DNA of 64,000 nt from the IMG/VR virus record IMGVR_UViG_3300034107_001363, positions 1 through 64,000 of that record. The stretch is one strand, 5' to 3'. The DNA comes from a virus. Positions within the stretch are counted from its first letter, which is position 1. Each line of letters opens with the position of its first letter. This document shows positions 39,581 to 64,000 of the stretch, piece by piece. Under the pieces are notes generated by a model that ran no database searches, was not told where the DNA came from, and saw only the letters and a program-made list of their open reading frames with translations. The translations under genes were made by a program, and so were the position numbers.

Positions 39581-39590
39581 TCAGGCTAAA
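39576..39590. promoter_or_regulatory. TTAGC palindrome variant, loop CAG
   Basis: TTTAGT-CAG-GCTAAA (one G-T pair). It contains the TAG stop of the YkuD-like gene and lies 44 bases before the next start. Confidence 0.5.
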
Positions 39591-39634
39591 ACGAGAAGTC
39601 TTGATAGTTCCCCAAGTTTTACTACTCTCCTGCA

Positions 39635-44676: not shown

Positions 44677-45798
44677 ATGGCTGAAAACGAAATTATTACG
44701 CCCAAGGAGAACCTGAAGGCCAATACGGTTGCCGACACCCGGGCCATTGCGGCCAAGCGTGGGGCCATCAATGCCGAGCGGCAGGCAATGCAGACAGAGC
44801 GTTCGTTGCAGCGGAAATACCGCCGTGCTGTGCGCAATGACGACTTTGGAGGAGCTGCGGACATCAGCAAACTGCTTGCCCAGACCGGTGGAAGCACGGT
44901 GGGTCCGGTGATCCGCCAAGCAGAAGAGGAGAGGGCGGTGGCTGGCCAACGTGCCATCGACCGGGCCGACCAGCAGAACAAGATCCGGGCCGGCGGAACC
45001 GCTGCCTTGATGCCCGGTGACCAGCGTCCGGTGGAACCCGATCCGGCTAACCCTCCAGCAGCGGTCAATGCTGGCAACCAGCCGGGTGCTGACGAGGTGG
45101 CTGAACAGGCAACCGCCAATCCTGAAGCCAAACCTGGGGCGGGCAATGGCACCGCGTTGAAGGGTTCGCAGCGCGCCGCAAAAGGCGGCGGTAACCGAGC
45201 TGTTGGTGATCGAAATGAAGCTGCTGATTCTATCGAGGCTCAAGCAGCTGCTCCGGCAGCGCAAGCAGCTGAACCGCCTCCAAAAGCCTTTCAACCTGAC
45301 AGTCGCCAACGGTTCATCGGCGATTTGAGGAAAAGTGATTCTTTCAGCAAGAAAGATCCCAATGCAATTAACAAGGCCATTGAGCGTGGATCCCAATTCG
45401 GAATTTCCCGTGATCAAATTAAGGCCTTTTCAGAAGACCCCACTTCAGCAACACCCTCCTTACGAGCTCAAGCAGCCAAGGATGACCTAGCTCGGGAGGT
45501 CGAAGAAAACTGGAACAAGGAAGTGTCGGGCCGCGAAGCCGTGATCAGGAGCAAGGCGCTTGACCTCGACAACGGCTTCATGTCCGGCCCGGCGTTTGAT
45601 GAGCTCTACGGTAAGGCAAAGACCGAAATAAAAAACCTGAGGGAGCTGCAAATTCCAGGCTACGAACGGCCGGCATCCGGAGCTTCGAATGCCACGTCTT
45701 ACGTCAATCCAAAGATTGAGCGGGCCTTCAGCGTGTCGCGCGAACGTATTGCCAGTTCGGAACAACGCTTCGAGAAGATGCGGCAAATCCTTGCGTAA
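44677..45798 (+). CDS. Internal virion protein candidate (373 aa)
   Basis: Ala/Gln/Arg-rich and helical: MAENEIITPKENLKANTVADTRAIAAKRGAINAERQAMQTERSLQRKYRRAV. A Pro/Ala/Gly-rich central linker (about 115-200) is followed by a second helical block (RQRFIGDLRKSDSFSKKDPNAINKAIERGS). Starts three bases after the previous stop. Resembles ejection-protein genes of short-tailed phages in order and composition; no family match is claimed. Confidence 0.55.
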   Translation: MAENEIITPKENLKANTVADTRAIAAKRGAINAERQAMQTERSLQRKYRRAVRNDDFGGAADISKLLAQTGGSTVGPVIRQAEEERAVAGQRAIDRADQQNKIRAGGTAALMPGDQRPVEPDPANPPAAVNAGNQPGADEVAEQATANPEAKPGAGNGTALKGSQRAAKGGGNRAVGDRNEAADSIEAQAAAPAAQAAEPPPKAFQPDSRQRFIGDLRKSDSFSKKDPNAINKAIERGSQFGISRDQIKAFSEDPTSATPSLRAQAAKDDLAREVEENWNKEVSGREAVIRSKALDLDNGFMSGPAFDELYGKAKTEIKNLRELQIPGYERPASGASNATSYVNPKIERAFSVSRERIASSEQRFEKMRQILA

Positions 45799-45804: not shown

Positions 45805-47262
45805 ATGAGCACTGACCAAGAACTTGCCGCAGCGTCTGCCGGTTTGACCAACAACCTGCCCGGGATGAACATCTTCGGGGCCGGCCGTTCGACCATGGCG
45901 GTGCTGCCGGAAATGATGCAGCTGGGCGAGGTGATGCGGATGCGCGCCGACCAGACCAAGGATGCCTATGCTATTCGGGGCTTAGACCGGGCTGAACAAT
46001 CGGCGTTTGCTGAAGCTGATGAGTTTGGAGCGTTTCAGGAGCACCTCAAGTCAACTGCTGGCATGAGCGATATTGATCGGGCAAAAGCCAATCAGAATGC
46101 TCTTATTTCCAATCCCAAATGGACCGCTAATCCGTTCATCAAAGACTCCCTCAGCCAACTGGATCAGTCGGGAGCTTCTTTGCTTTCTGCCCGCAAGAAT
46201 GAATTGGAGGTAAAGCAGGTTGAGCAAGGGATGTGGGCTGCCGGGATCGAGGAGTCAATGAGGGAAGAGGCGGTGAAAACGGCTCGGATCAACAGTCGCA
46301 CCGCCCTCAAGCAAGCGGAAGATGGAGCAGTTGAATATGACGCCAAAGTCGAGCAAGGCCAGTTCGACAACGCACTGTCTTTGAGCGAGGCCTTGCATTC
46401 TTCCGGAATGGGGCAGAAGGCCAAAGAGAGAGTGGCAGTGTTGGCCGACCGTTTTGGTGCTGATCCTGTTGATCAGGCCCGGGTCCGGGGGATCAGCAAG
46501 ATTGTCGGCTCGTTTAGCCGGGCCCCGGCGGTGGCGCGGGTCTACGCTGCAGAGTTGACTCCTTACCAAGAGGTTTACAACCAAATGAAGTCTGATGGTC
46601 TTGCGGTGGATCCGACCGACCCGAACCAAACCCCTCAATCCATTGCGGCCAGTTTTGATCAGGCCATGTCCAATGTAGGGAAAACTGGCGCGCGGTTAGA
46701 GGATCAAAGCAAGATGTTGGCTAGGATTACCGAAGCCAAGGCGGCGATGATGGTGCTGGCTAATCATGTTAGCCTGGCTAATACCGCCGAAGCGGAATTT
46801 GTCGCCGGGTTGGAAGAGAAGATGAAGGACTCCTCCCCCGGAGGGAAACAGGCGTTGCGCGAGTTTACCGTGGAGTGGGGAGTGAAAGCGGGCGAGTTCA
46901 GCGGGATCTACAAGCAGCAGATGGAGGAACATGCGCTGAAGCTAAAAACCGAAGAGGAACAGCTCAAGCAGGATGACGTCCGCTCAAAAATTGCGGCTCG
47001 GGTCTCCGGAGCCACTGCAGCCGAAGCCCGAATTGTGCTTCAGGAATACGGTTTCGTATTTAAGGCTTCTCAGAACAAGTCGGCTCAAATCGCTTCGGTG
47101 CTCAAAGCCATTCTTCCCGACGAGATTTCCGAGGAAGATGGCGTAATCGACATTGAGGCTTACGAACAGAAGGCTAGGGAGATCGTTGAAGCCAATGACG
47201 CTACCCCGCTGGTTCCTGACGTTTCGAAGAAGCTTCCCGGCACCAACGACGCTCTCGACTAA
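45805..47262 (+). CDS. Internal virion protein candidate (485 aa)
   Basis: Almost fully helical with many Gln/Ala/Glu: MSTDQELAAASAGLTNNLPGMNIFGAGRSTMAVLPEMMQLGEVMRMRADQTKDAY, then long amphipathic helices to the end. Helical internal proteins next to a giant protein are typical of the ejectosome that extends the short tail across the cell envelope. An exact TTAGC palindrome is inside (46769). Confidence 0.55.
   Translation: MSTDQELAAASAGLTNNLPGMNIFGAGRSTMAVLPEMMQLGEVMRMRADQTKDAYAIRGLDRAEQSAFAEADEFGAFQEHLKSTAGMSDIDRAKANQNALISNPKWTANPFIKDSLSQLDQSGASLLSARKNELEVKQVEQGMWAAGIEESMREEAVKTARINSRTALKQAEDGAVEYDAKVEQGQFDNALSLSEALHSSGMGQKAKERVAVLADRFGADPVDQARVRGISKIVGSFSRAPAVARVYAAELTPYQEVYNQMKSDGLAVDPTDPNQTPQSIAASFDQAMSNVGKTGARLEDQSKMLARITEAKAAMMVLANHVSLANTAEAEFVAGLEEKMKDSSPGGKQALREFTVEWGVKAGEFSGIYKQQMEEHALKLKTEEEQLKQDDVRSKIAARVSGATAAEARIVLQEYGFVFKASQNKSAQIASVLKAILPDEISEEDGVIDIEAYEQKAREIVEANDATPLVPDVSKKLPGTNDALD
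46769..46781. repeat. TTAGC palindrome, loop CTG (intragenic)
   Basis: Exact core within the helical virion gene; encodes part of HVSLANT. Confidence 0.5.
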
Positions 47263-47280: not shown

Positions 47281-50200
47281 ATGGATTTTTCCAACCTGAC
47301 CCGTCTCGCTCCGCCTAAGTCGCTTTTCACCAAGGAACCAGAAGTTCCGGAAGTGCCAGAAGAAGAGCAAGAGGAACTCGACCTGAAGCGGCCGGAGACC
47401 TACTTGCTTTCATCGAAATGGGTCAATGCCAAGTCCGTTGAGGAGCGGGTGGCGTTGGTCGACAGGATTGCTTTGAAGCAACTGGAAGCACTGGAAGCTG
47501 ATAAGGAGGGCACCATCGAGATGGAGGTCTACCGCAAGGAAGCCGACGGCAGCCGGTCGGGCAAGCCGGTGCGCGACCAAGTAAAGACCTATGGTCCGGA
47601 TGGGTTATTGAGCCGGCAGTCGCTTGAGTTCCTTGAGCAAAGCCGCCAAACCCTTCTTCAGGCTGCTCAGGATCCGGACGGCGGGGTTCGCCTCAACGGT
47701 TTTTCCGGCAAGCTGGAGGCATCCAACTGGATTGACCAGGCGGTGCGTGGCAATCGGGCTCCGGTTGAAGACGATCCGTCTCTCAAGCCTTACGACGAAT
47801 TCATCAAGGACCAGTCGGTGTTGGCAACCGAAGAAACCAAGCCCGATTTCTCGTGGGAGAAATACACCAAGTGGAGCAACGACCGCCAGACCGACCCCTC
47901 CAAGCAGGTTGACCCAAAAGACGAAAAGCAAAAGAGGAAGTTTGATGAGCATGTCGGATGGGCGACCTACGACCCGACCAGCATGGGGCCCGACAAGGTG
48001 ATTGACACCTTCAACGGTCGGGTGACGGTCAATCCGACCAACTTGTTTGAGTATGACCAAGCTGAGCGGGAGCTTACCGAGCGCACTGATTTGACTCCTG
48101 CCGCCAAGAAGCTGGCTTGGATGGACTACGAAGCCAAAGTCAACCAGCACATCATGGACGGGGTCAACCTGTTTGCTTCGGCGGATGCTGGAGTGGAGTT
48201 TTTGTTTGGTGATTTTGTTTCTTCTGCGGAAGGCCTCGCAATGGAGGAAAAGATCAAAGGGTGGAGTGATGAGGACAAACAGGCGTTTCGGCAGGAGCAA
48301 GCGGCTAAATTCAGCGGACGGATGGGACTCGGAGCAAAGCCTTTGATCAACGAGCTGGAAGCTCATCTTGAGGCAGGAGGGTCCGGCATCGACTTTTTGC
48401 GCGCCAACAAAGAGCGCATGAGTCGGGATTCGTATGGTCCAGTTAGCGAGTTGGCCGCCAAGACCCGTGACGCGTTTCTGGCAACCGGTGGCGGAATCAA
48501 CTGGGCGATCGGTCATTACGTTAACCAAGCGCCCGGCGTTGGGACCATGTTTCGCATGGCGACGGGAACTGATGGCACCGAGTTTAGCCGTCCAGCCCAA
48601 GAGTGGGGAATCTTGGCCGAGGAAACAGCACAGGCCTATCGCAATCCTGAATATAATTTGCTGATCACTAAGGTCAACCGCCGTGACCTCACCTCATTGG
48701 GCGGACAGCTTGCTTCGTTTATCGGGTTGGGAAGCTTGGGGATAGCAGCAACTAAGGGAGCAACTTTGAGTGCGGCGAAAGCGGCTTTGGCCCAAGGCAC
48801 CGCGATGGCAACCGCGAGCACGGCGACACGGCTGGCGACGGCTACTGGCGGTCGTCTTGGCCCGAAGACAGCAGCTTTTTTGGTTGAGACGGCAACAGAC
48901 GCCACTGCTTATCTTGGTGCCATCCAAGCGTCAGGGATGTCGTTTGGCGGAACTCATGACGCGATTCTCAAAAAGACCGGCGACGCGAAGGAAGCCTACC
49001 GGGTGGCTTCGATTGACGCCGTGGCTGACGGACTTGGAGCACTCATTGCCACCTCGGTGATGAACCGGGTCGCACCCGGAGCGGAACGGTTGTTTGGTCT
49101 CCAACCTGGCAAGGCCGGTGGTTCGTTGGTTCAGCGCTTTCGCGCAACCCGGGCGAATACCGTTGGCGCCAGTGGTTTGGCAGACATCAAGAATAGCTTG
49201 AGCAAGCTTCATCCAAAACTTGGCAAGCAGTTTGCCAAGGACATGAAGGCTGCGATTCGCCACGAAGCTGCCCAAAAGGGTCTTCGTGGTTTTGGGGTGT
49301 TCAAGTCAATGGGAGCGGAAGGAATCGAGGAGTTCTCCGACGAAGCGATTTCCGACGTGATCAAAATGATTATCGATGACTCCAAAAGCTGGTCAGCCGG
49401 CGACTGGGGCAACATCCACGACAACTTCCGCGACTATTTGAAGGCCGGTGTGTTGGGGATGATCGGCGGGGCAGTGGGCGACGCCAAGGCAATGGCCTCA
49501 TCGGGCTGGAAAGCAACCGTTGGCAACGACGATAAACGCAAGGCTGAAATCAAGCGGGCCGTCACCGACCGGTGGGCATTTATCAAGGCCGATGTGGCAG
49601 GGGCAATGGCTGACAAGGACACCGTCAATCCGATTTACGACGGCACGGATCCGGATGCGTTGAAGCTGGCTGCGGTGCTGGCGTCAGACGATCCGAAGTT
49701 CGATTTGAAATACAAGTCGCGGATGCTGGTGGCGGCAGCCCGCAAGGGGGCGGCGAGGCCGTTCAGCGAAGCGGTCGAGAATGCTCAAGAAGATGGTCAG
49801 AAGCCGTCCAAGCGCACTTCGGCTGTCACTACTCCGGCGACGGGCTCAGCGAGTCCTGTGGTGCCTTCTGGGGGCTCTAGTATTGAAGAAGCGAGGCAAG
49901 CGGCGGTGCTTGGTGTTTCCAAAGCTCCCGCAGGCACCCGGGCCAGGCAGAAAATCGAGGTTGAGGAGTTGCCTGCGGTGACGTTGCCCAACGGCAGCAC
50001 CTTGACCCCGTTGAAAATTGGCGGGGTGGGAGCGGCTGGAGCGCGGCTTTTGGTAGCGGGGCCGGACGGTAGTGTCACGGTCAGCTACCTCGATGCGACC
50101 GAAGCTGCGGCGCTGGTAGGCACGACCGACAAGAAGCTGCGCAAGGAGTTCGAGCAGACCGCCAAGGACCAGCAGCAGGAACTGGCCGGAGGCAAATTCA

Positions 50201-53200
50201 GCGACGCATGGACCGAGGCTGAGAAAAAGACGGATAGCAAAGCGGCGCAGAAGCAGGCTGAAGTGAAGCCTGCTGACCGGCTCAAGGCCGCAGCGGCCGT
50301 GAAGCTCAAGCGCAAGCCGCCCGCCCTAGGCACTTCAAAAGAGCGCTTTGAAAAAGCCCAGCCGCCGAAAGAGGTAATCAAGAACAAGCCCGTCAATTCG
50401 ATGGGCGAGGCCACTCACAATTACAGGACCAAGAAAGGCATCCTTGAGTCGGTGACCACCATTCTCGGAAAGTCCCGCCGGTTCTTTTTTGACAAACAGA
50501 AAGCACTTGTTGCGGCAGTCAAGGGCACGGGGATGACCGTGCAGGAGAAGGCTGCCGAATGGGACGCCGATACCGAGGCTGGCACCTTGCTGCACGAGCA
50601 AGTGTCCGCGGTGTTGTCCGGCGGTAATCCGTCCAGCGATCCGTTGGTGACGAAAATTGTTGAACTGGTTCGGGAGAATGCAGCCGACGTTCCATTGTCG
50701 GAAGTGATCATCAGCAGCAAAACCTATGCGGGGTCCATCGACATCCTTGTGCCCCTGGCTGACGGAAGCTGGCTGTTGATGGACATCAAAACCCTCAAGG
50801 ACAACCCTCACGAGACCGGATCCAAGCCGTCTCTCCGTCATCGCGACAAGGGTTCCAAAATCGACGCATGGGCCATTCAGCTGCTGGCTTACAAGACGGC
50901 TCTTGAGGCTCGCGGCTTGGTGGTGAGCGAGATGAAAATCATCCCGGTTGACCGTGTCGGGCGGGAGGTTTTTGTCGACAGCGAGGGCAATGCGCTACTG
51001 GATGTGGCCCCTACTCCAGAGCAGGAGGAGTGGTTCAACGAAATTTTCCAGCAAGATGACACCGACCAAGGAGCCGACGATGTGGCAGTTGATGAGCAAG
51101 ATTCAGGTCCCAAGCCAAAAGGTGCTGGAGTGGATGCAGCTGCCAAAGTCGGAAGCGGTCAACAAGATGCAGGCAATCGGCCAGCTGGAGAAGAATCAGG
51201 CAGAGAGACTGCACCAGATGCTGCAGCCGAAGTAGCAAGGAGCAAAACTCCCTCCAAGGTGTTGCTACCAAAGGCAACCGAAAATGCTCCGCCACGTCCA
51301 CCACAAGAAGGTGGCCGGGAAGGGCGAGACGCACGTCAGGCGTGGGACGACCAGTATGCGTTCACCCACAACCCCGACGGCAGTCCGATTCAACCGACAC
51401 TCACAGAAGAAACGGTTCAAGCTGCTCAAAAAGCGGGCAAGCTCGCCACGGGAGATTCGCGGATTGATGCGTTAGGCGTGTTCGATCAAGCCGGGGTGGG
51501 AACAGCCGTTGAGCAGCTTCTCGATGCTGGGTGGAACTGGAACGGGCAGCGCATGGAGAACCCCGACGACCTGGCTGAAACCCCAGCCGTTGGGTTGCAG
51601 CGAATCCGTGCCGCCCGCGACAATGCTCAACAGGCACCTACACCGGCGGCACCTGCACCCGCAACCCCTTCAGTCTCCCCCCAAGCCCCCCTCGAACCCG
51701 CTGCCGAAGTAACCTACGAAGCGGTGAACGGCAACCGGCTTCCAGCCAAGGTTGTCGGGGTCAATCCCGATGGAACCTACCAAATAGATGTTCCAGGATT
51801 CGGCGAGTTGACCCGTGTCACTCGCAACCGGTTGGAACCAACCCCGACAACCAATGAAGAACAAAACCAAGTCGAAGTTCCGGTTGTGGAAGCTCCTGCT
51901 TCATCTGGCCTAACTGTTCCGAAGCTGGTGACCCGGTTACGCCTCTTGCACGGCATTGTGTTTGAGCCGAAAGCCAGAGACGCGGGTGCCCGTAACCTCA
52001 ACAACAAAGACCGCTATCCTGGCAATAACGACGTCTGGATGCAGGCAAACAACGGCGCGTTGTTCTTCCATCCGGACTTTCTCGAGAAGGTGTTGGCTAA
52101 CGACGAAATTTCCGACAAGGTGGGCTTCGTGGAAGCGACTGTTGAGGCGGTCCGCACTGGCACCGACATCCCGTTGATGCCCGAGCAAACCGAAGAGGTT
52201 ACGGTGGAAGAACAGACCGAGGAAGAGCAGGAAGCTGCCGCGGTGAAGGAGACCGAGGAAGTCAAAGCAGAGCTGGAGCAAGAGGAGACCAAGCTGGAAC
52301 AACTTCCGGACGATTCGACTGTCGATGAGGTTCGCGAGGTGGCACCGCAGCTGGTGGATACCGCGACGTTGGCTGCCCTCAATGCTTCCGACCGCGAGTC
52401 GTTCCTGACTTGGCTCAAGGGATTCTCCAAAGGCCTCTCTCGTTTCGGCGACAAGATTTGGCGTGCTGCCAAGGGGATGGCAGTTGCACTGGCCGGCATC
52501 TCGGTAGCTCCTCAAGCGACCAACCATGAAATTGCTTCGGTGGCTCAGGTTTCCCCTGAACTGGTTGAGGTGGTTAGCGGTAGTTTGCCTAACTGGGCAA
52601 CCCCTTCCGACGTCTCCATTGAGGCGGAGTTTTCCGATGGCACCCTGCCGCTGCCTCTCAACGAAACTGACAATGTGGCGGCGCTGGATGTCAGCACCTT
52701 GCCTCAACCGGCTTTGGTCAGCATCGATGTGCCTCAGCCTCGTCAGGTCATCAAAGATGTGCAGGCGCCGAAGGTTGGCAGCGTGGAAGCGACCCAGTCG
52801 CTTATCGATGAAATGAACCTTGGCAACGTAGGCACGACTCTTCCCGGCGGTTTGGCCAAGTGGTGGCTGAAGCAAGGCAAGAATCCGGCGGTCAATGCGG
52901 CAGCTGCCTTGCTGGGAGAACACGAGAAAGGTTCATCCCGAATCAAGTCGATGCTGGTGAGCATGGGGGTTTCTGAAAATCCCTCGTCCTTCCCGTGGTG
53001 CAGCGCTTTTCTTTCGTGGAGCCTGAACCAAGCTGGACTCAAGACCAAGACCATGTCGTCACGGGCTTTTCTTGGTCTCGGCCAGAAAACCACTGCTCCT
53101 GCCTATGGTGACGTGGTGGTTCTGTGGAATGATAATCCAGCTACCGGCGGCAAGGATGGCTGGGGTGGACACACTGGGTTTTACCTCGGCGAGACCGATA

Positions 53201-56200
53201 CTCATGTGATTGTGCTCAGTGGCAATTCGGGCGACTCGGTAGATGTTTCGGCTTTTGTCAAAACCCGTGTTCTTGGCTATCGAGCTTTTGGCAACACACC
53301 GGGATTGCTCGCTTCTCGCGGACGGCCGAAGCGCCGGGCTCGTTCCCGTCGGTCCTTGCCGCCGTTGAAGGGATTGGCGGGGGGGCCTGCTCAGCCGGCT
53401 CCAGCGGTTCGCAAGATCAGGAACTTGTCTGTCACCGAAGCGGAACTGACGGAGGAATCGGCGGAAGGCAAGTGGCAGCAAAAGGGGAACGACTACCTTT
53501 TCACCCCGGCCAAGGGCAAGATGGTGCGGCTTGCTCCGGGCGAAGTAGTGCAAATCGCCGGTAGCGACGACTTGTTGTTTCTCTACTCGGTCGGCGACGG
53601 GGTGTGGCAGTTCAAGCGGATCAATCCGGAAAAGCTCTCCGAGATGTGGAGCGACGGCAATACTCGGGTCAAGGTTGGCCATTTGCAGCAGGAATGGGCG
53701 AGGACTCGGTTGGACCAGACTGCGGCCGATGTCGAAGGCTTGCTCGACGACTTGCTTGGCTCGGACGCCGCACCCAAAGCCAAGCTGATCACCGGGCTGC
53801 GCAAGCTGCTGCGGAAGGTAATGGCGGAAGTTGCTCCTAATGCTGATCCAGTTGCTCCTGATGGTGATCCGTTTGTCGAGGTGAAACTGGAAGGCGACGA
53901 TTTCATCCAGGCTCGCATTGAAACGGTGCTGGTTGAAAGTTCCCAAGAAACCAAAGAGAAACTAGGAAAGGAGTTGGCTAGGCTTGAAGCGAACCCGGAG
54001 TTGCAGCAACTAAAGGATGAAATCAAAAGGATTCTCGGGAGTTTGCCTAAGCATGATGACCCAGGCCGCATGGCGGCTGAAGCTCCGCTAAAACCACTTC
54101 AGGATCGCTTGAAAGCCCTTGAGCTTGAAATCAATAAAGTCAAAACCGCCATCAGTCGGACGATTAAGCGTATTGAAACTGAAGCTGATTATTACGGTGA
54201 AGCTGCAGTTAAGACCATGGAGGTGGACTTGGTCAATTTGGTGGCCAAGCTGCGCCGCGAGCTGGGAGGGGTAATGCTGGCCAACGACGAGACTCGCGCC
54301 CATGCTGCGCTCGAGGTGGCGCGCCTGCTGGCCAAGTGGGTCGACGAAGAGCAAATCCACTTCCTTACTTTTGACGAAAAGCGTTTCCCGCGACTTGAGG
54401 TGGAGGGCATGGTCGGAGCTATTTTCAAAGACGTGAAGCATCCGTTCCGGCCAATGCTGCTGGAGACGCTGGACGAGCGTTTTCCAGACCGTTCGCTGGA
54501 TGAGGCCGATGACACTTTCCTCGACGACGACAACGGGTTTTACACCCTTGGCGCCGAGTTGCTGCGGAAGATGCTTCAAAAACAACTCACTGGCACGACT
54601 TCGGAGGATGCGGTTGCTCAAGCAAACTACTTGGCTGCTGCAATGGCTGCTGACTTGCGCGCTGGCAAGATGACCAGCAAGGGCAAGCCGTCGCTGTTAC
54701 AGACCATTGGGGCTTTGCTGCGGCGCTACAGTGAGCGGATGCGTTCGATCCTTGGGATGCGTTGGGCCGTCGGCCAGTTGCCGGAAGGTCAATATCGTCT
54801 GTTCCACCGCCTGATGCAGGACTACCGCAAGGCCAACTTGCGCGGCGACGTCGATCTGGCGCGCGAGAAGCTGGTGATTGCCACTGCCACCCGCTTGCAG
54901 CTGCACAGTTCGGACATGGAGGAGCGGCTCAACAAGATCGGCCGCAAGCACACCGAGGGCCTTGAGCAGATCAAGCGTTTGCCCAAGGTGCTGCTGGACA
55001 TCGGTCAGGAGGATTTCCTTGTCCTTAATGCCGAGGGTGAGCTGACGTTGCACGAAGAGGTTGAGAAGTTCATCAATCGCAATCCTGACAAGTTCAGCCA
55101 CTCGCTCATTTACGACGCCTTAGAAGCGATGCAGTCGGAAGATGGTTACCAAGCCGCTTGGATGGACGCCGCGCTTGCTAGGAATGCCTTGGAGGCCCGG
55201 GAATTGGCCTTCGACTTTAACCCCGCCGAGTTGTTTGGTGATTCGTCGACTTTTGACCCTGAATCTGCCGTCGGCAAGATCATCGCTGGTTCGCCGCAAG
55301 CTGCTTACAATCCGCTGGTGCGGATGCGCCGCGACGAGCTGGCCGCGATGGACAAGCAAATCGAAGACCGTGCGGCTGGCTTGGTGGTGTCGGAACTCGA
55401 ACGAGTTGAGAATCTTGATCCTTCCGATAAGAAAGATCAGCGGGGTTTGATCAAGTTGGCGGGAGCGCTTGGCGTGATGCCGGCTTCACTCCCTTCGTCC
55501 AATGAAGATTTCGCCAGGCTAAAGGAACAAATTGCTGTTCACATGGAGGTGATGTTCGAGCAGGGCGGTCCTCGTCCGTGGGAAGGCAATTACGACCCAG
55601 CTTCTGGCCGCTTGGATGGCGCGGTGTATGGGGGGCCGTTACCGTCCGGTTCGTGGTCGATGGGGGACGAAACAGCTGAGGCTCAGCCGTCTATTTTCAG
55701 GCAAGAGCAGGAAGCTTTGGCCGCGTTGCGCGAGCAGCGGTCCCGCAAAGCCGACGACCTACTTATCCTGCAAGGGGTGCTTCAACGCGACGCCAACGGC
55801 CAGATTGTTTCCGGACCGACCACCGAGGAAGTGCCTGAAACCGACCGCACTGGGGCTTTGTGGCAACTTAACAGGGAACAACGCCGGAACGCCGAAGTGC
55901 TGCGGATCCGTGACCGGATGCGTCAAGCCGAGAAGGACGTCGACATGGTGGAAGCCGAGCGGCGCTACGCTCAACTGGTCGACTACCTCGAAGCGCTGGA
56001 TGAATACAATCGACGGGTCACCCACATGAAGCGGCGGGCAATCGGCGACTTTTACGACTGGGAGAAATCTGACTATGGCCTGTTTTGGCAGGACACTCGG
56101 GTCGACAGCGAGAAAGCCGAGGATCCCCGTATGTGGGATAAGAGCGACCCGGCGCCGGTAGCTATGACCGCTAGCGACGTGTTTGGTTACCAAGCGCTGC

Positions 56201-59200
56201 CGCCCGAAGCGACAACCGGGGAAGGGATTAAGCCGGGCTTCGGCCATCCCCGCAATCCACCGAAAGACGCCGACCCCAAGGAAGCCGAACTGTTCCGCGC
56301 TTACGACCGCGCGACCAAGAGCAACGCGGCGTTCCGAGGCCGGGAATGGCGCAAGGACTTCACGCTGGCCCAGTGGATGGAGGAGCTTCCACTCAATTTC
56401 GACCAGCAACTTTACACCGCAACTGGCGGCTTTCGCTTCCCATCGATCGAAAAGGACGAGTTTGGCCGCTTGAGTTACGAGACCTCCGAGCAGGCGTTTC
56501 CTAGTTTTGACGGCTTTGACGAGCTGTATGCGATTCATCGAATGGGAGAGGAGAACGAGGAACTGAGCCAGCAGCAGCGCAACCTGCGGGATGCCCCTTT
56601 GTGGATCGATCAGTTTATCGGTTACGTCGACAAGGCTGAACGCTGGCTGGCCCACGTCCAACTTCGGGCTGGCTTGGATGAGTTTGACACTGGTCCTGAC
56701 ATTGTGCGCGAGATGAACGGTAAGCCGACGCTGGCGGCGCAAAGCCAGTTGCTGCTCGATCCGGTGCTAGAGGCGTTTAGCGACAGGCTTGCCGCACTCA
56801 AGAAGGATTTCCTATCCAAGATGGGGCCTCACTTGGACTACTCCGCGAAGGAGAACTTCCGCGACAGTTTTGCTCGTGAACGGGGCAAGCTGGCTCCCCT
56901 GACTGACGAAACTCAGATGGCTCAGGCGTTCTTGAAGATGATCAAGGCCAAGGAGTCCTTCAGCCCGTTTAAAGTGGCGATGGAAGCTACCCAGCAGGCC
57001 AACACTGCGGTCAAATTGGTTCGACGGGCTCTCCATGAGTTTAGCAACTTGCGTTGGCAGGAGAACTTGGAGAAGGAAATGATGAAGACGGTGCGGGACT
57101 TGTCCTACACCCCTGAGCATTCCGAGTTTTTGCGGTTGCGCGATACTACCCTCGACCCGGCGACCATCCGATTCCTTGAGTTCAATCTCAAATACATCTC
57201 GCAGTTCCCCGATTCTTACCACGTCGGGGCGGGTTACGCCTACGAGTTCCTCGAGCAGCACCGCAAGGTCAACAAGGGTGGCGGCGGGGAGCCATTCATG
57301 AAGGTCTACTTGGACAGCCAAAAGCGCGCGCTGGCCAAGGGTCTTCCAGTTGAAATTAACGAAGAGGCCCAGGTACTGACGATTGACGACACGGGGCCGG
57401 ATGGACAGGCCTATAACGTGTTTGCTTCAGGCGAACAGGGGGCTGACTATAACGCTTTCACCAACGAACGGATTGGCAATGGCTGGCAGACCCAACAGGA
57501 GAAGGCGACCAAGGATGCCAACATCGCATTTCAGGCCCGCAAGATCCGGCTGTCGACTTGGCTGACTCTTATCGGTTTCCGGATTAGCGAGAGCACGGGC
57601 AACGTCGAGGACGCTAAGAGCTTTCGCAGTGACGTCGTGCGCAAGATGCTGACCGGTGAGGGTGACTCGCTGGAGTTGGTTGGTCGCGGAATTCGAGGAA
57701 TGTTTACCGCCGCTTTGTTCAACGACGAGTTGCATTCCACTTTGGTTGAGCAGTTTTTGGAAGCTAATCCGCACTGGAAGGATTTGCCGTCGCTGGATGA
57801 AGAACTGAATCAAGAAACGACATCCCGACGTGTTGCTGGAGGATTTGATGCCGAGGCTTTTGCGGTGGATTTGCTTGAGTTCAAGGAGGGTTTCGAGCGA
57901 GAAGTGCTGCAATCGGCGCTGGTCAACGACAAGGACCAGATGGCGACGGCCTTGGCTACCGTGCTGCGGGTCGGCACAGCAGGCATCAAGGACATCGTGA
58001 TTGATCCTGAGTTTAGCGGTCTGAGTGCTGCCTACCGGCTGAAGCAGGACTACCAAGCGTTCGGCAAGGCCCATCAGGAGAAATACGGCGTGGACATCCT
58101 CAACGCCGACGAGCAGGTGTTTTCCAACGTCACTGCCGAGGAAGCGACTTTGGTCGCTCAAGTGATCCAGCAGCAGATGCTCAACGGCGACTTGCGGCCA
58201 TACGACGGCCGGCTGGTCACTGGCGACTTATGGCTGGCAACCAACCCTGTGTTGGCTTTGCTAGCGGGGTCTCAACCCGGCTCGCGCTGGGTGCCCGATC
58301 TGGTCAAGGAAGGTGAGGAAGAGACCGGTAAATGGGTGCCGGTGCAGACGTTGATCATTAGCCCTGACGAGAAGGCGATGGCGGTTGCTGGCGCGGATGT
58401 CGGGTTCCGGGTCTTTCCCGGCAGCGACGGGATGCCTGACGTCATCTGGGCCCCGCTCAAGCCAACTGGCCAGCAGGACGCCCAGTTTGCCATTCAGCAG
58501 TTGCTGCAGGTTTACGGGGAGGTGCCGGCGATTAAGAGCAACTTGCGCGAACTGGCACGGATTTTCCGCGAGACGCTGGCCCCCGGCTTCCTTGCCAACG
58601 ATGTGATGGCTGCGTTGGACGATAAGATGGTCCGGCTTCGTAGCGATGTCAGTAACCGCAATTTGTTGGGCACGACCACTACCGGGAATTCCAGCACTTG
58701 GCAATCAGTGGCGCTAGATTTGGGAGTGACCGAGTTTTTGGGAGCGACTTGGGAAAGCGAGTTGGCCAAAATGGGGGTCGATTTCAAGTCTCCGGCTTTT
58801 GAGGAAATCCGCCAGCTGATCAAGTCAAGCAAGCACGGGCCGAGCCGCCATTGGAAAATGCTCCACAACGCTCTTAAAGCGCAGAAGTTGACTGCTACCA
58901 TGGGCGAGCTTAGCGAAAGCCTGCGCGCCCGCTTTGCCGACCGGATTTCTGAGTTGTCGAAGGAAGAATCCGAGCTGTTCGAGCAACTGCTGGCCGACCA
59001 CTACTATTCCGCTTCCCGGTCGCTGGCTGAGTCGTCGATCACCGAGGCCGAGATCAAGAGCGAGGGCTGGGGTGCCGACGTGCTGCTCATTTCGCTGATG
59101 CTTAGCGATCCTGCCTACAAGCGGGCTTTTGACGTGTCCTATGTCGGCGACGAGTCGGAAAATCCAGCGGGTGACGACAGTCTTTCGCCGGTGATGCGTG

Positions 59201-62200
59201 ATGCCCTTCAGCGGGCCATCAGCCAGCTCCGCAGCGTGGCTCAGGACTACGAGCAGGCGGACGAGGGCCGGACGGCTAACGATGCCGTGCAGGCCTTTGG
59301 CGAGAGCGATCTGGTAGATGACCAGCAAGTGGCTGATGAAGACGACCAGGCTGGGGCACAACGGGTGGAGAGCAGCACCGAAGAGGAATCCCCTCGTGCA
59401 CGAGGCAAGGGCAACCTACAAGCCGACCCGCTTGCTCTTCTTAAGTTGCTAGCTCCGAACCGAATGACCTCGCCGCGCCGTGACGAAGGGGTGATTCCTC
59501 CGTCTGACGCCTTGTTGTTTAACTTGCTGGAAAACGTTTTTGTGGCGGCCAACAAGTGGAATGATCGGCTGAACTACCCTGAGTCTCCGCTCCGCAAGCC
59601 GTCTGTCCGAAAAATGATCAAGAAGTCGACCAATGCCAACAAGGGTTTGGCGGCGCCGATCTACGAGGAAACTGGCAAGCCACAGAATGCTCGTGCTCGT
59701 GCGAGATCAATGTATGTCGGGAGCATCCTAAATCTTGGCAATCCGGGCTCGCTCGGCAAGACCCGCATCTCGGCGGCGATGAATCGGACCCGCCACGCAA
59801 CGATCAGTGCCGCGTTGCTGGGCAGCGACGAGTATACCCGCGAGGAGATCGACAGCGAGATTGGGATGCGCGCCGACAAGGCGGAGAAGCGCGGGATGGA
59901 CTACGGCATGATCGAGCAGAAACTGGTGCTCCATCCTTACATGATGGACCGACTGGCTTTGATGCTGCCAGGCTTGGAAGAACAGCGCGACAAAGCCCGA
60001 CAGGCGTTGAACAGCCTTGACAGCCGGCTTGACTATCTCGACGGGACCTCCACTGCAGCCGAGAAGTTCTTGCGAGAAACACGGTCCAGCACGCTGATGC
60101 TCGACCGAGTTCATGCCGCTTTGCGTGTAGAGAAGCAGCAGCTTGAGGTTGACATGGCTGGCTACGAGCCGTCCCAAGCACAGGAAATTGATTCAATTAA
60201 ACGCGAGATTGCTCGAATTGATGGCTTGTTAGCCAAGAAGGATTTGGGCGAGTTCATCGAGTTGGCTGACCTACATGGGGATTTTGTGGCAAACCACTTG
60301 GCTGATGCCGTGGTGGAGATGGCGGAAGAGTTTGGCTATCAAGCCGATCGGTTGGCCGCTACTTCTGTTCGTCTGGTGGAAAAAAGCCTGTTGGCCCGTC
60401 TTAAGCTGATTCATGGAGGACAAGGGGCTCGGGTTGAAAGCGGGATGGTTCCTGCAATGACCCAAACGATTGAGGCGATGCGCTTCCTGTTGCGCCAGCG
60501 GGATGCTGTTCTTGAGACCGATCCTTTTGGGCAGGTGGCTTCAATCAATCAGGAGCTGGAGGAGAAGATTGCCGAATTTGGCGAACTAGCCGGACAGCTG
60601 GAAGGAGCGGTTCGGGCCAATCTGAATGCTAGTCTGAAGGAACTAGGGCTCAAACCGCGTTCCGGTCAGGCGTTCCCGTCGTTTAAATTTGGCCCAGCGG
60701 AAGGCTTGGATGACAACCAGCTTGAAGGAATGTCGCGCCGCTTGTCTGCTCGCTCAATCCTTCGCCAGGCTAAAACTGGTGAAGCGCTGCTTGAGGGCAC
60801 TCTTGACTGGGCAACCCGTGAATTCCGCGACGGCATTGGCAACTTGCTCAATAAGCGAGGAGGAGGGCAGAAGCCGAAGACTGCCAAAGACAAGGAGGCC
60901 AAGGAGCAGGCCATTGGTTTGCTTCACAACTTCTTGCGGGGGATGACCGGCAAGAGCAAGACCGATGTGGTAGCCGCGCTTAACGCGCTGGTCAGCCGGG
61001 TTGAGGAGGCCGCAGCTCCAGAACAGGTCAATATTATCAACCTGACGGTCAATCCTGATTGGGAGAGCGTCAAGGAAGCGGCACGGAAACAAGCTTCGCC
61101 ATTGTTTGCGATGCTGCGGATGCTGGCGCTAAGTACGGAAGAAGGTCAGGCTTTGCTCGACAACAACACCACCACTGCTGGCGAATTGAAACGTCAAGCC
61201 AAGGCCCGTAACCATATCACGGAAGCTGCTCGTGAAAAAAGCCGGCTATTGAAGCAAAAGTCGATGATGCTTGGCGGTGACGGCACTTACTACGTTGGAC
61301 GCTATAGCCATGTCAGTCCACACCTTAACCGGGCGGGCGATCCTTACGTGGTGCCGGTGGCTATGACCTTGGCTGCACCACAAGTAGATCCCAACTCGCG
61401 GGTCCAGTCTTTGACTCAAGAACAGGTCAGCAAACAGAAGCAGTCTGTTGAAGAACAGATTCGTCGCGAGTTTTATATCAACCGTTCGGCATTGAATCGA
61501 ACTTTGCAGATTTTGGCGGTCGACCGGATTGACGCTCACTACAAGCTGCTTCGTGGCGAACTGGACAACTACAGCACTTTCGATCCATCGTTGATGGTAA
61601 ACGAGGCAATCGATCGGGTTAGGATTGCCGACGCGGTGATCAAGACTCGCCACGAGCAGGCTTTGTCTGACCAGGAGCAAGCTGCCAGCCGTGGGATGAC
61701 CCAGGAGTCGCTTGGGATGTTGCTGGAAGACCACAGCGAGTTTTTTACTGGCGAGCCGGTGTTGCCAGCTCATCTACAGAAGCACGGCACGGTGGCCGGA
61801 ATGAAGCGGCGCAGCGAACTGCGGGCCAAGGTCAACCGGCTTCCCGCTAGCTACGAGGCCCGTAACCGGCTTTACGGCACACTTTACGATAACGGCACTC
61901 CGATTGTACTGATGGCTCAGGATGCTCGTCAGCGGCTGATGGACGCTTTTCCTGAGACTATTACCCCGCGCAACATCAACCGGACGGTCAACAACATGGT
62001 GTTGCGTGCGCTGGCCAAAACCCCGGCTGCTCGCGGCAAGCCGGCGTTTATGATCCACACTTACGCTGACCTGAGCGGCAAGTTTACCGGAGACTTTGAG
62101 CTGACCAATGGCAAAGATTTGAATTTGGAGCAAGCTGGCAAGGCGTTTTCGGAACGGATCAGCGGTCACCTGCAGCAGTGGCTTGACGGCAAGCGGGGCA

Positions 62201-64000
62201 AGGAGGTTGCCCTGACTGGTGCGACCTCATCCCGCACGCTTGGCTTGTTCAAATCGTTGGTCGAGCAGCTGGTGCATGTCTATGGCGATCCTCGGATGCG
62301 CAACCAAAAGGGAGAACTCAACAACACTGGCAAGAAGGTGGAAGCGTTGCTTCGTCAGATCGACGGGAATGGGTTCTCTGCCGACATTCAGGTAGCCAAG
62401 TTTGACCTGATTGGCACTTTTGCTGAAGCTTTTGCTGAGACCGAAGCGGAGCTGGTGATGCGCGACTTGGTGGCCGGTCTGGTTACTCATAACGACGTAT
62501 TCAGACTGACCACGATGAAAATACTTCATCATTCGTCGGCTCGTAATCGGATTCGATTCAACAAGACTCACGTCGCTCGCGAGACTGCGATGTATTTGCA
62601 AGCTTACTTGGAGCGCGGCTTTGACGGCGAGAGCGGACGCGAGGGCCGGCAGACTGCCCACGAGGAGCAGCGAGCCCGTCTTTCTACGGCGTCTAAGAAG
62701 ATCAGTAGCATTGGCCAAGACAAGACGCTTGACCAGTCGTTGGCTTACGTGGTGGCCCAGCTGGACGGCTTGCAACACGCTAACGGCTTAGACCCTACTC
62801 AGGCGCTAGGTGAGTGGTATGAGGCATTCAAAGCTGGCTACCGACAGCTGAAAGAACTCGACAAGCAGCAAGGCAAGAAATGGAACAGTTTTGAGAGGTT
62901 CTTTGTGGCCAACCATGTCAATCTGATCCGCGATTTGCCGCTGGCCAACAAGCTGGCGGAGATCATGAACGCATCGCGGGCGATGGACGACTTCGGCTTG
63001 GTTGATCCGACTAGCACCAAAAACCACGATGAATATCGCAACGACGAATCGCTGCGGATCATTGCTCAGCTTAAGGAGGCTTTGCTTAAGGCCTCCACTG
63101 ACCGGGCAGGCACAGAACATTACGCTGCCGAGATGGGAGCCGTGCTGCTGGACGCCTACAATGCGACCGCTTTGGCTTTGGCGGTGATGTCAAAGGTTAG
63201 CGGTCCTCGGATCGACACCGGGATAGAGCAAGAAGACGACGCTTCGATTGCTTGGCAGAATCGGGAGATTAAGCCGTGGCGGCGGACTTACGGCGCGGTG
63301 CCGATTCGATTGGCTTACGCTACCAACCCGGGGATGCTCGAAAAAGTTCAAGGCCGCGAGGGCAAGTGGATCCCCGATCCGGCCGACACGGTAGCAATTA
63401 CCGACAGCTCGTTCTTCGGCGGCCTTGGCAAGAAGGAGACCAACCGTCGCTCGCTGGAAGTTTTGCGGCCGATGTCGGTGAACGGCTTGTCGGCTCCGCT
63501 GGCAATTTTGGACGACGCGATTTACCGGTTGAACGTGGCTCCCAATTACGAGGTACTGCGGCGCTTGACGGGCAAGGTGGAAACCCAGTCTGGGGTGCCC
63601 GAGGTTGGCGATTCGATGATGCTCAACGCCGCCAACCGCAACAATCGCGGGATTTACGACCAGGACAGCAACTGGCGTTTCGCTATGGCGGCAGTGGCCA
63701 GCGAGATTGAAAGCAACTTGTTCAACGACGCGCGGTCAGGGGTTCTCGACACAGCTTTTGCCGAGGCGACCAGTTGGCTTTCTTCTGCTTTCATCGTTCG
63801 CTCGTTGTCATCGGTCCTTCAGCTTTGGGACCAAACGGCGTCTGCTACTGTTGGCTTTGTTTTGAAGAAAGTGCTAACCGGTCAGCCTCAGGTGGCTGGA
63901 GATTTCATTTACGCGGTGGCTCATCAAATTGGCAGCCTTTGGAGCGGGGAGGACGGTTTCAATAGGCGTTTGTCGCGGTTTACCTACAACATTTCGCCTT
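47281..64000 (+). CDS. Giant virion polyvalent protein, incomplete at right edge (more than 5,573 aa)
   Basis: One frame runs from ATG 47281 to the edge without a stop. I read every codon. Order: a helical N-terminus; a hydrophobic Gly/Ala stretch near residues 470-530; a PD-(D/E)XK nuclease domain with H1105, D1154, D1168-x-K1170 and Q1200-x3-Y1204; acidic/Pro linkers; a TIGR02594/CHAP-like peptidoglycan hydrolase with C1907 (PWCSAF), H1964 (GGHTGFYLG) and N1982; then over 3,500 residues mainly of long helices with coiled-coil parts near residues 2270-2300 and 4300-4320. It probably enters the host with the DNA, opening the wall and acting on DNA. No single-subunit or double-psi-barrel RNA polymerase motif was seen. 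Confidence 0.85.
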   Translation, partial: MDFSNLTRLAPPKSLFTKEPEVPEVPEEEQEELDLKRPETYLLSSKWVNAKSVEERVALVDRIALKQLEALEADKEGTIEMEVYRKEADGSRSGKPVRDQVKTYGPDGLLSRQSLEFLEQSRQTLLQAAQDPDGGVRLNGFSGKLEASNWIDQAVRGNRAPVEDDPSLKPYDEFIKDQSVLATEETKPDFSWEKYTKWSNDRQTDPSKQVDPKDEKQKRKFDEHVGWATYDPTSMGPDKVIDTFNGRVTVNPTNLFEYDQAERELTERTDLTPAAKKLAWMDYEAKVNQHIMDGVNLFASADAGVEFLFGDFVSSAEGLAMEEKIKGWSDEDKQAFRQEQAAKFSGRMGLGAKPLINELEAHLEAGGSGIDFLRANKERMSRDSYGPVSELAAKTRDAFLATGGGINWAIGHYVNQAPGVGTMFRMATGTDGTEFSRPAQEWGILAEETAQAYRNPEYNLLITKVNRRDLTSLGGQLASFIGLGSLGIAATKGATLSAAKAALAQGTAMATASTATRLATATGGRLGPKTAAFLVETATDATAYLGAIQASGMSFGGTHDAILKKTGDAKEAYRVASIDAVADGLGALIATSVMNRVAPGAERLFGLQPGKAGGSLVQRFRATRANTVGASGLADIKNSLSKLHPKLGKQFAKDMKAAIRHEAAQKGLRGFGVFKSMGAEGIEEFSDEAISDVIKMIIDDSKSWSAGDWGNIHDNFRDYLKAGVLGMIGGAVGDAKAMASSGWKATVGNDDKRKAEIKRAVTDRWAFIKADVAGAMADKDTVNPIYDGTDPDALKLAAVLASDDPKFDLKYKSRMLVAAARKGAARPFSEAVENAQEDGQKPSKRTSAVTTPATGSASPVVPSGGSSIEEARQAAVLGVSKAPAGTRARQKIEVEELPAVTLPNGSTLTPLKIGGVGAAGARLLVAGPDGSVTVSYLDATEAAALVGTTDKKLRKEFEQTAKDQQQELAGGKFSDAWTEAEKKTDSKAAQKQAEVKPADRLKAAAAVKLKRKPPALGTSKERFEKAQPPKEVIKNKPVNSMGEATHNYRTKKGILESVTTILGKSRRFFFDKQKALVAAVKGTGMTVQEKAAEWDADTEAGTLLHEQVSAVLSGGNPSSDPLVTKIVELVRENAADVPLSEVIISSKTYAGSIDILVPLADGSWLLMDIKTLKDNPHETGSKPSLRHRDKGSKIDAWAIQLLAYKTALEARGLVVSEMKIIPVDRVGREVFVDSEGNALLDVAPTPEQEEWFNEIFQQDDTDQGADDVAVDEQDSGPKPKGAGVDAAAKVGSGQQDAGNRPAGEESGRETAPDAAAEVARSKTPSKVLLPKATENAPPRPPQEGGREGRDARQAWDDQYAFTHNPDGSPIQPTLTEETVQAAQKAGKLATGDSRIDALGVFDQAGVGTAVEQLLDAGWNWNGQRMENPDDLAETPAVGLQRIRAARDNAQQAPTPAAPAPATPSVSPQAPLEPAAEVTYEAVNGNRLPAKVVGVNPDGTYQIDVPGFGELTRVTRNRLEPTPTTNEEQNQVEVPVVEAPASSGLTVPKLVTRLRLLHGIVFEPKARDAGARNLNNKDRYPGNNDVWMQANNGALFFHPDFLEKVLANDEISDKVGFVEATVEAVRTGTDIPLMPEQTEEVTVEEQTEEEQEAAAVKETEEVKAELEQEETKLEQLPDDSTVDEVREVAPQLVDTATLAALNASDRESFLTWLKGFSKGLSRFGDKIWRAAKGMAVALAGISVAPQATNHEIASVAQVSPELVEVVSGSLPNWATPSDVSIEAEFSDGTLPLPLNETDNVAALDVSTLPQPALVSIDVPQPRQVIKDVQAPKVGSVEATQSLIDEMNLGNVGTTLPGGLAKWWLKQGKNPAVNAAAALLGEHEKGSSRIKSMLVSMGVSENPSSFPWCSAFLSWSLNQAGLKTKTMSSRAFLGLGQKTTAPAYGDVVVLWNDNPATGGKDGWGGHTGFYLGETDTHVIVLSGNSGDSVDVSAFVKTRVLGYRAFGNTPGLLASRGRPKRRARSRRSLPPLKGLAGGPAQPAPAVRKIRNLSVTEAELTEESAEGKWQQKGNDYLFTPAKGKMVRLAPGEVVQIAGSDDLLFLYSVGDGVWQFKRINPEKLSEMWSDGNTRVKVGHLQQEWARTRLDQTAADVEGLLDDLLGSDAAPKAKLITGLRKLLRKVMAEVAPNADPVAPDGDPFVEVKLEGDDFIQARIETVLVESSQETKEKLGKELARLEANPELQQLKDEIKRILGSLPKHDDPGRMAAEAPLKPLQDRLKALELEINKVKTAISRTIKRIETEADYYGEAAVKTMEVDLVNLVAKLRRELGGVMLANDETRAHAALEVARLLAKWVDEEQIHFLTFDEKRFPRLEVEGMVGAIFKDVKHPFRPMLLETLDERFPDRSLDEADDTFLDDDNGFYTLGAELLRKMLQKQLTGTTSEDAVAQANYLAAAMAADLRAGKMTSKGKPSLLQTIGALLRRYSERMRSILGMRWAVGQLPEGQYRLFHRLMQDYRKANLRGDVDLAREKLVIATATRLQLHSSDMEERLNKIGRKHTEGLEQIKRLPKVLLDIGQEDFLVLNAEGELTLHEEVEKFINRNPDKFSHSLIYDALEAMQSEDGYQAAWMDAALARNALEARELAFDFNPAELFGDSSTFDPESAVGKIIAGSPQAAYNPLVRMRRDELAAMDKQIEDRAAGLVVSELERVENLDPSDKKDQRGLIKLAGALGVMPASLPSSNEDFARLKEQIAVHMEVMFEQGGPRPWEGNYDPASGRLDGAVYGGPLPSGSWSMGDETAEAQPSIFRQEQEALAALREQRSRKADDLLILQGVLQRDANGQIVSGPTTEEVPETDRTGALWQLNREQRRNAEVLRIRDRMRQAEKDVDMVEAERRYAQLVDYLEALDEYNRRVTHMKRRAIGDFYDWEKSDYGLFWQDTRVDSEKAEDPRMWDKSDPAPVAMTASDVFGYQALPPEATTGEGIKPGFGHPRNPPKDADPKEAELFRAYDRATKSNAAFRGREWRKDFTLAQWMEELPLNFDQQLYTATGGFRFPSIEKDEFGRLSYETSEQAFPSFDGFDELYAIHRMGEENEELSQQQRNLRDAPLWIDQFIGYVDKAERWLAHVQLRAGLDEFDTGPDIVREMNGKPTLAAQSQLLLDPVLEAFSDRLAALKKDFLSKMGPHLDYSAKENFRDSFARERGKLAPLTDETQMAQAFLKMIKAKESFSPFKVAMEATQQANTAVKLVRRALHEFSNLRWQENLEKEMMKTVRDLSYTPEHSEFLRLRDTTLDPATIRFLEFNLKYISQFPDSYHVGAGYAYEFLEQHRKVNKGGGGEPFMKVYLDSQKRALAKGLPVEINEEAQVLTIDDTGPDGQAYNVFASGEQGADYNAFTNERIGNGWQTQQEKATKDANIAFQARKIRLSTWLTLIGFRISESTGNVEDAKSFRSDVVRKMLTGEGDSLELVGRGIRGMFTAALFNDELHSTLVEQFLEANPHWKDLPSLDEELNQETTSRRVAGGFDAEAFAVDLLEFKEGFEREVLQSALVNDKDQMATALATVLRVGTAGIKDIVIDPEFSGLSAAYRLKQDYQAFGKAHQEKYGVDILNADEQVFSNVTAEEATLVAQVIQQQMLNGDLRPYDGRLVTGDLWLATNPVLALLAGSQPGSRWVPDLVKEGEEETGKWVPVQTLIISPDEKAMAVAGADVGFRVFPGSDGMPDVIWAPLKPTGQQDAQFAIQQLLQVYGEVPAIKSNLRELARIFRETLAPGFLANDVMAALDDKMVRLRSDVSNRNLLGTTTTGNSSTWQSVALDLGVTEFLGATWESELAKMGVDFKSPAFEEIRQLIKSSKHGPSRHWKMLHNALKAQKLTATMGELSESLRARFADRISELSKEESELFEQLLADHYYSASRSLAESSITEAEIKSEGWGADVLLISLMLSDPAYKRAFDVSYVGDESENPAGDDSLSPVMRDALQRAISQLRSVAQDYEQADEGRTANDAVQAFGESDLVDDQQVADEDDQAGAQRVESSTEEESPRARGKGNLQADPLALLKLLAPNRMTSPRRDEGVIPPSDALLFNLLENVFVAANKWNDRLNYPESPLRKPSVRKMIKKSTNANKGLAAPIYEETGKPQNARARARSMYVGSILNLGNPGSLGKTRISAAMNRTRHATISAALLGSDEYTREEIDSEIGMRADKAEKRGMDYGMIEQKLVLHPYMMDRLALMLPGLEEQRDKARQALNSLDSRLDYLDGTSTAAEKFLRETRSSTLMLDRVHAALRVEKQQLEVDMAGYEPSQAQEIDSIKREIARIDGLLAKKDLGEFIELADLHGDFVANHLADAVVEMAEEFGYQADRLAATSVRLVEKSLLARLKLIHGGQGARVESGMVPAMTQTIEAMRFLLRQRDAVLETDPFGQVASINQELEEKIAEFGELAGQLEGAVRANLNASLKELGLKPRSGQAFPSFKFGPAEGLDDNQLEGMSRRLSARSILRQAKTGEALLEGTLDWATREFRDGIGNLLNKRGGGQKPKTAKDKEAKEQAIGLLHNFLRGMTGKSKTDVVAALNALVSRVEEAAAPEQVNIINLTVNPDWESVKEAARKQASPLFAMLRMLALSTEEGQALLDNNTTTAGELKRQAKARNHITEAAREKSRLLKQKSMMLGGDGTYYVGRYSHVSPHLNRAGDPYVVPVAMTLAAPQVDPNSRVQSLTQEQVSKQKQSVEEQIRREFYINRSALNRTLQILAVDRIDAHYKLLRGELDNYSTFDPSLMVNEAIDRVRIADAVIKTRHEQALSDQEQAASRGMTQESLGMLLEDHSEFFTGEPVLPAHLQKHGTVAGMKRRSELRAKVNRLPASYEARNRLYGTLYDNGTPIVLMAQDARQRLMDAFPETITPRNINRTVNNMVLRALAKTPAARGKPAFMIHTYADLSGKFTGDFELTNGKDLNLEQAGKAFSERISGHLQQWLDGKRGKEVALTGATSSRTLGLFKSLVEQLVHVYGDPRMRNQKGELNNTGKKVEALLRQIDGNGFSADIQVAKFDLIGTFAEAFAETEAELVMRDLVAGLVTHNDVFRLTTMKILHHSSARNRIRFNKTHVARETAMYLQAYLERGFDGESGREGRQTAHEEQRARLSTASKKISSIGQDKTLDQSLAYVVAQLDGLQHANGLDPTQALGEWYEAFKAGYRQLKELDKQQGKKWNSFERFFVANHVNLIRDLPLANKLAEIMNASRAMDDFGLVDPTSTKNHDEYRNDESLRIIAQLKEALLKASTDRAGTEHYAAEMGAVLLDAYNATALALAVMSKVSGPRIDTGIEQEDDASIAWQNREIKPWRRTYGAVPIRLAYATNPGMLEKVQGREGKWIPDPADTVAITDSSFFGGLGKKETNRRSLEVLRPMSVNGLSAPLAILDDAIYRLNVAPNYEVLRRLTGKVETQSGVPEVGDSMMLNAANRNNRGIYDQDSNWRFAMAAVASEIESNLFNDARSGVLDTAFAEATSWLSSAFIVRSLSSVLQLWDQTASATVGFVLKKVLTGQPQVAGDFIYAVAHQIGSLWSGEDGFNRRLSRFTYNISP

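Follow-up and report, generated by a model that had tools for sequence, protein, structure and literature searches.

Positions 1–64,000 of the virus record IMGVR_UViG_3300034107_001363 (IMG/VR; this stretch of 64,000 nucleotides is referred to below as the window) contain the greater part of a giant gene at their 3′-end, the product of which is probably an ejection protein of the polyvalent type, packaged with two smaller proteins and ejected ahead of the phage DNA. The remainder of this 73,295-base record was also read. An earlier note on this DNA had described a single open frame starting at ATG 47281, and the open reading frame (ORF) listing confirmed that it is open to position 63999 (5,573 codons, with the 3′-end beyond the window); a stop codon looked for further downstream was found in the parent record as TGA at 65212–65214. 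The complete gene takes up ∼24% of the record, contains no N bases and specifies a protein of 5,977 residues (656 kDa, pI 5.4). When the same 17.9 kb were shuffled 200 times, the longest open run obtained was 311 codons (mean 180). The distance from the upstream stop codon to ATG 47281 is 18 nucleotides (nt), and no obvious ribosome-binding site was found there.

Relatives of the giant gene were not recovered with patterns derived from the protein, nor with an alignment of eight C-terminal sequences; they were found via the terminase first, and then with N-terminal and narrower C-terminal alignments. A search of viral contigs with the terminase large subunit (TerL) identified 47 loci with a relative. 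A homologous single frame of 4,652–5,501 residues was present in all seven TerL relatives of at least 60 kb, which originate from other metagenomes and whose near-complete genomes have G+C contents of 39–58%, while the TerL relatives showing no match to the giant gene were fragments of less than 38 kb. Alignment searches with the giant protein added six more records, five of them with a complete frame and one in which the frame closes across the ends of the record, the latter bearing a 123-base terminal repeat. This brought the number of complete giant genes to 14, all from uncultivated phages (4,652–5,977 residues), the copy in the window being the longest. Since direct terminal repeats of 123–127 bases are present in four of the giant-gene records, these four are consistent with complete genomes of 67–76 kb. 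Because the runs in shuffled DNA are far shorter and homologous frames occur in relatives, the giant frame is not an assembly accident; it is a conserved gene. In cultured phages, tblastn gave no match to the C-terminal third of the protein, using either the window protein or a distant member as the query, and none to the predicted portal; likewise, neither the C-terminal alignment nor the terminase revealed a prophage or a host among 84,980 bacterial and archaeal genomes. The earlier note was correct in stating that the product is larger than the virion RNA polymerase (vRNAP) of phage N4 (5,977 versus ∼3,500 residues; N4 size from PMC12633501). That comparison holds for scale and not for kinship, as no relationship to a polymerase was found. 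After a look at the literature on giant phage proteins, a size record among them is not claimed.

A conservation map derived from an alignment of the 14 giant proteins, together with domain searches, gave the following organisation:

47281..64000, on to 65214 in the parent record, + strand: giant ORF (ORF listing and homologues in relatives).
47281..49770, + strand: conserved N-terminal region, residues 1–830 (14-sequence alignment).
49771..53430, + strand: hypervariable cargo bay, residues ∼831–2050 (conservation profile; cargo differs among relatives).
50311..50973, + strand: cargo 1, RecB/Cas4-type PD-(D/E)XK exonuclease domain, residues 1011–1231 (phrog_298 exonuclease, E = 4.4e-13).
52888..53283, + strand: cargo 2, TIGR02594/CHAP-like peptidoglycan hydrolase, residues 1870–2001 (TIGR02594, E = 1.1e-18).
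53398..55440, + strand: conserved block after the bay, residues 2040–2720 (alignment).
55858..61797, + strand: middle region, residues 2860–4839, moderately conserved, with no recognised domain.
61798..64000, to 65211 in the record, + strand: C-terminal region, residues 4840–5977, strongly conserved and all-helical (alignment and model).

The length of the bay ranges from 378 to 1,230 residues across the 14 homologues. In the window protein, inspection of the nuclease segment showed all of the motifs H, GxxD, DxK and QxxxY to be present (H1105; D1153 within GSID; DIK at 1168–1170; QxxxY at 1200–1204), and the segment is homologous (E = 6e-15) to a nuclease in the bay of the relative G005, itself a match to phrog_298 (E = 2.7e-11). 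The hydrolase scored 67.8 bits against TIGR02594, below the curated cut-off of 70.55, and matched the phrog_1259 tail lysozyme with an E value of 1.1e-19; its Cys (PWCSAF), His (GGHTGF) and Asn (SGNSG) residues are in place by inspection. In tblastn searches 325 phage records matched and, among the matches listed, all lay within the hydrolase segment. The hydrolase is also carried by relatives G004 and G016, and the domain of one relative clears the Pfam CHAP cut-off (26.6 versus 26). Inspection of the other bays revealed an HExxH segment in G002, G003, G006, G016 and G018 and a different one in G017, three of these six being weakly SprT-like. As an observation in its own right, the G017 segment (L113, residues ∼742–1386) combines HExxH with a downstream EAN and resembles by eye an ImmA/IrrE-type metallopeptidase; it had no library match.

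Direct evidence for the swapping of cargo was provided by the relatives G005 and G019. The two share 99.87% identity across 9,990 nt and 99.1% across the gene's first 3,123 nt; between these stretches, 697 nt of G005 give way to 325 unrelated nt in G019. The segment replaced contains the nuclease, which G019 lacks, and the other, smaller blocks of difference between the two all lie inside or beside the bay. Further, G015 and G017, which can otherwise barely be aligned as DNA, have in common a 181-nt bay linker with 91% identity. The replacement and the shared linker therefore indicate an in-frame exchange of the bay, which probably takes place through recombination in the linkers.

Outside the bay, the N-terminal region contains Gly/Ala-rich helical segments at residues ∼400–740 and invariant residues E680, E683, E684 and D687, and gave no PDB profile match of weight. 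In the block after the bay, an EExxH motif (E2356, E2357 and H2360; bases 54346–54360) and residues E2426 and Q2433 are invariant in all 14 proteins, a possible metal site. An AlphaFold2 model of this block (predicted local distance difference test score, pLDDT, of 77) had no fold match in the PDB at E ≤ 0.001, and with a modelled fold devoid of any match the label of protease was not applied. A hydrophobic segment (residues 5759–5777, by hydropathy) followed by an acidic DDDD run lies ∼220 residues before the C-terminus, and two relatives have such a segment at the corresponding position. PDB profile searches with regions of the giant protein returned chance-level, mostly helical matches only, and Pfam hits such as KH_DUF2096_C and Flu_NS1 were disregarded, their scores being far below the cut-offs.

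The C-terminal region was modelled by AlphaFold2 as an all-helical body (pLDDT 75.6; predicted template modelling score, pTM, 0.78). No match to this model was found in the PDB at E ≤ 0.001, while 39 viral models in BFVD matched at the same threshold, the best with an E value of 1.9e-12, a probability of 1.00 and a TM-score of 0.48. The named matches were to a large polyvalent protein, ART-PolyVal(-like), MuF C-terminal and LT_GEWL proteins, and to a Flavobacterium phage protein named as structural, the phage itself bearing a podovirus-type name. A weaker fold match (E = 2e-3, probability 0.91) was to gp42 of Celeribacter phage P12053L, which lies where internal virion proteins B and D are reported to be encoded in cobaviruses (PMC6775973); since comparison of sequence profiles between the giant protein and cobavirus gp42 gave nothing, this link is one of fold.

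The genes upstream that matter for the interpretation of the giant gene are the following:

45805..47262, + strand: internal-type protein 2 (IVP2), 485 residues, predicted ejection protein (in G001, G002, G004, G005 and G007 a homologue immediately precedes the giant gene).
44677..45798, + strand: internal-type protein 1 (IVP1), 373 residues, predicted ejection protein (homologues at the equivalent place in G001, G002 and G004).
43738..44673, + strand: predicted head–tail adaptor, 311 residues (position; upstream homologue in seven of seven relatives).
25168..27474, + strand: predicted portal, 768 residues (position and size; 49–66% identical in seven relatives).
23043..24788, + strand: terminase large subunit (weak similarity by tblastn to the Pseudomonas phage AF terminase, E = 8e-5).

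The late genes run in the order terminase, predicted portal, predicted scaffold and capsid, fibre-like genes (31179–42736, including a Big_6 protein), predicted adaptor, the two internal-type proteins and the giant gene, which is the last of the late genes; genes on the opposite strand come next in the window genome and in most relatives, a primase-helicase being among them in the former. The earlier note had placed the gene after two genes for internal-like proteins, and this stood; the gene was, moreover, found to close the late operon, in an order conserved in relatives. Among the seven relatives an upstream homologue was detected for the adaptor in seven, for IVP2 in five and for IVP1 in three. 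The giant gene thus lies beside the adaptor and tail genes as part of a set of three, as ejection proteins do, with IVP1 and IVP2 not being detected in every member. A diverged relative matched the terminase of Streptomyces phage Marky (E = 7e-5). The adaptor gave only E = 0.14 against SU10_adaptor; portal, capsid and adaptor had no library match and profile searches returned nothing significant (for the adaptor, no PDB match of weight).

An ejected polyvalent protein is favoured because of the gene order, the set of three, the wall hydrolase, the C-terminal fold and the precedents described below. From these data we infer that the protein is packaged and ejected, how its parts divide the work and what each enzyme does. 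The giant protein would be packaged in the head together with IVP1 and IVP2, would leave the virion ahead of the DNA and would help to form a passage across the cell envelope. The conserved ends would act as the carrier, in which packaging, threading and membrane passage would fall to the N-terminal region and to the C-terminal region, all-helical and in part hydrophobic; the peptidoglycan hydrolase would open the wall locally and the RecB/Cas4-type nuclease would act on nucleic acid after delivery, metallopeptidase-like domains occupying the bay instead in relatives. The earlier note had also suggested packaging and ejection into the host, and the nuclease, the wall hydrolase and the polyvalent-like C-terminal fold fit this suggestion. 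A bolder proposal, put forward only tentatively, is that these phages make up an undescribed family in which the ejection protein serves as a delivery chassis: the conserved ends would guide a chain as large as 656 kDa through the tail, the enzymes of the bay (wall hydrolase, nuclease and metallopeptidases) would be swapped at disordered linkers, and the effectors would evolve independently of the carrier.

Several points weigh against the polyvalent ejection protein. Its presence in the virion is deduced from genes, and searches found no cultured member. Since portal, capsid and adaptor were assigned by position and size, the predicted short-tailed morphology likewise goes back to gene order. 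The C-terminal matches have moderate TM-scores (≤0.48) and come from a model built on only 13 sequences; no Pfam LPD domain was present in any of the regions of the giant protein scanned; profile searches gave no sequence-level match to known ejection proteins; and the bays of five of the 14 homologues contain no recognised enzyme.

Phage polyvalent proteins have been proposed to be packaged (Iyer et al. 2017, PMC5512222). Like them, the window protein combines unrelated enzymatic domains (nuclease and peptidoglycan hydrolase) in a single chain; its phage genome has a terminase recognised by weak similarity and a portal predicted from position, and its modelled C-terminal fold resembles that of proteins annotated as LPD, ART-PolyVal or MuF-C. 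Unlike them, it gave no Pfam LPD hit, has its cargo in one bay rather than spread out, and belongs to a phage group in which a size of ∼4.7–6.0 thousand residues is conserved throughout. N4 ejects its 383-kDa vRNAP with gp51 and gp52 (PMC12633501), and the arrangement of one giant and two smaller ejection proteins (predicted in the present case) is shared, as is a chain of the beads-on-a-string kind, described for N4 gp50 (Schitoviridae; PMC12633501). However, the window protein is 1.7 times longer and carries a nuclease and a wall hydrolase, and no RNA polymerase or sequence similarity was found. In T7 the gp14–gp15–gp16 genes also follow those of the adaptor and tail, and the largest protein, gp16, is a channel builder with a peptidoglycan-degrading domain (PMC8954989); gp16 is, however, far smaller, its domain is a transglycosylase rather than one of TIGR02594/CHAP type, and no sequence similarity was found. 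Homology to the ejection proteins of T7, P22 or N4 was not detected with PDB profiles, nor at the level of the C-terminal fold (E ≤ 0.001). P12053L gp42 (1,487 residues, Cobavirinae) is alike in its weak C-terminal fold match and its location in the internal virion protein area, and differs in being about one-fourth as long, with no sequence-level similarity found.

The strongest rival explanation, although an unlikely one, is that of a polyprotein: the 656-kDa chain would be made whole and then cut by a built-in metallopeptidase, either the EExxH block or an HExxH cargo, to yield a number of virion or early proteins. The invariance of EExxH and of the downstream Glu in 14 of 14 members would agree with this, as would the HExxH segments in the bays of six relatives (seen by inspection; three weakly SprT-like) and the autoprocessing proposed for polyvalent proteins, P1 DdrB being processed before packaging (PMC5512222). 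Yet EExxH departs from the canonical zincin motif, no zincin in the PDB matches the model of the block, the HExxH cargo is missing from most members, the window protein included, no evidence of cleavage sites was found, and N4 vRNAP stays intact (PMC5512222).

The other possibilities fit less well. The giant protein is very long, largely helical and encoded late, which would suit a tape measure protein with its own wall hydrolase in a long-tailed phage. Hydrolase domains can indeed occur in tape measures. This explanation fits poorly and is very improbable: the gene comes directly after adaptor and internal-type genes and is not followed by tail-tip genes, being the last late gene before opposite-strand genes in most genomes; the cargo by itself varies the length by more than 1,300 residues, which would alter the length of the tail; and the proteins that the C-terminal fold resembles are polyvalent and internal ones. 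An N4-type virion RNA polymerase forming part of a larger protein also fits poorly and is, if anything, slightly less credible. The layout is similar, with two smaller internal-type proteins beside one giant, and there are polyvalent proteins in which RNA polymerases of N4 type are joined to MPTase and lysozyme domains (PMC5512222). On the other hand, profiles of five regions (A4, A5, A6, A8 and A9) found no RNA polymerase among PDB chains, and the sole conserved ‘xxxGR’ (residues 5117–5120) lacks, by inspection, the T/D of TxxGR in most members. Finally, size would be in keeping with a giant adhesin or other surface protein having no role in DNA ejection. Many giant bacterial proteins are adhesins. 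Nevertheless, this is the least plausible of the four, as no β-rich repeats, signal peptide or binding modules were found, the two regions modelled are mainly helical, the cargo enzymes are of types acting on wall and DNA, and the gene has the position of a virion gene, the fibre-like genes being located elsewhere (31179–42736).

If the giant polyvalent protein is indeed ejected, it would represent an extreme case of protein translocation through a diameter-limited tail, well beyond that of the N4 polymerase. The limits of the swapped bay segment show where foreign domains are naturally inserted in an injected protein, and the exchange makes the idea of polyvalent proteins directly testable, in terms of which cargo helps against which host. 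The giant gene also marks a diverse group of uncultivated phages, with structural proteins that largely escape current libraries. Its interest lies in its scale, its conservation across the family and the visible swap of cargo.

Some observations concern other genes. No tRNA genes were found in the window. The first of the fibre-like genes (31179–33584, + strand) encodes a structural-region protein with a weak match to GDSL lipases/acylhydrolases (E = 5e-4, below the cut-off), possibly a deacetylating tail spike or fibre. A glycosyltransferase-like gene (42978–43706, + strand; weak, Pfam E = 0.011) lies in the structural operon directly before the adaptor. Upstream of the terminase, 22147–23046 (+ strand) encodes a Gly/Ala-rich helical protein of 299 residues, the homologue of which in G003 lies elsewhere, beside the fibre genes. 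On the early strand, 6248–7111 (− strand) encodes another nuclease-like protein, in which PD-(D/E)XK motifs are apparent; by BLAST it shows no similarity to the nuclease of the giant protein. Lastly, the terminases of several relatives, such as G004 (12441–15338, − strand) and G005 (63634–66426, − strand), contain an intein-like insert of ∼350–370 residues exactly within the Walker A motif, starting with CVSGDTR and ending with IHHN, which the terminase of the window lacks.
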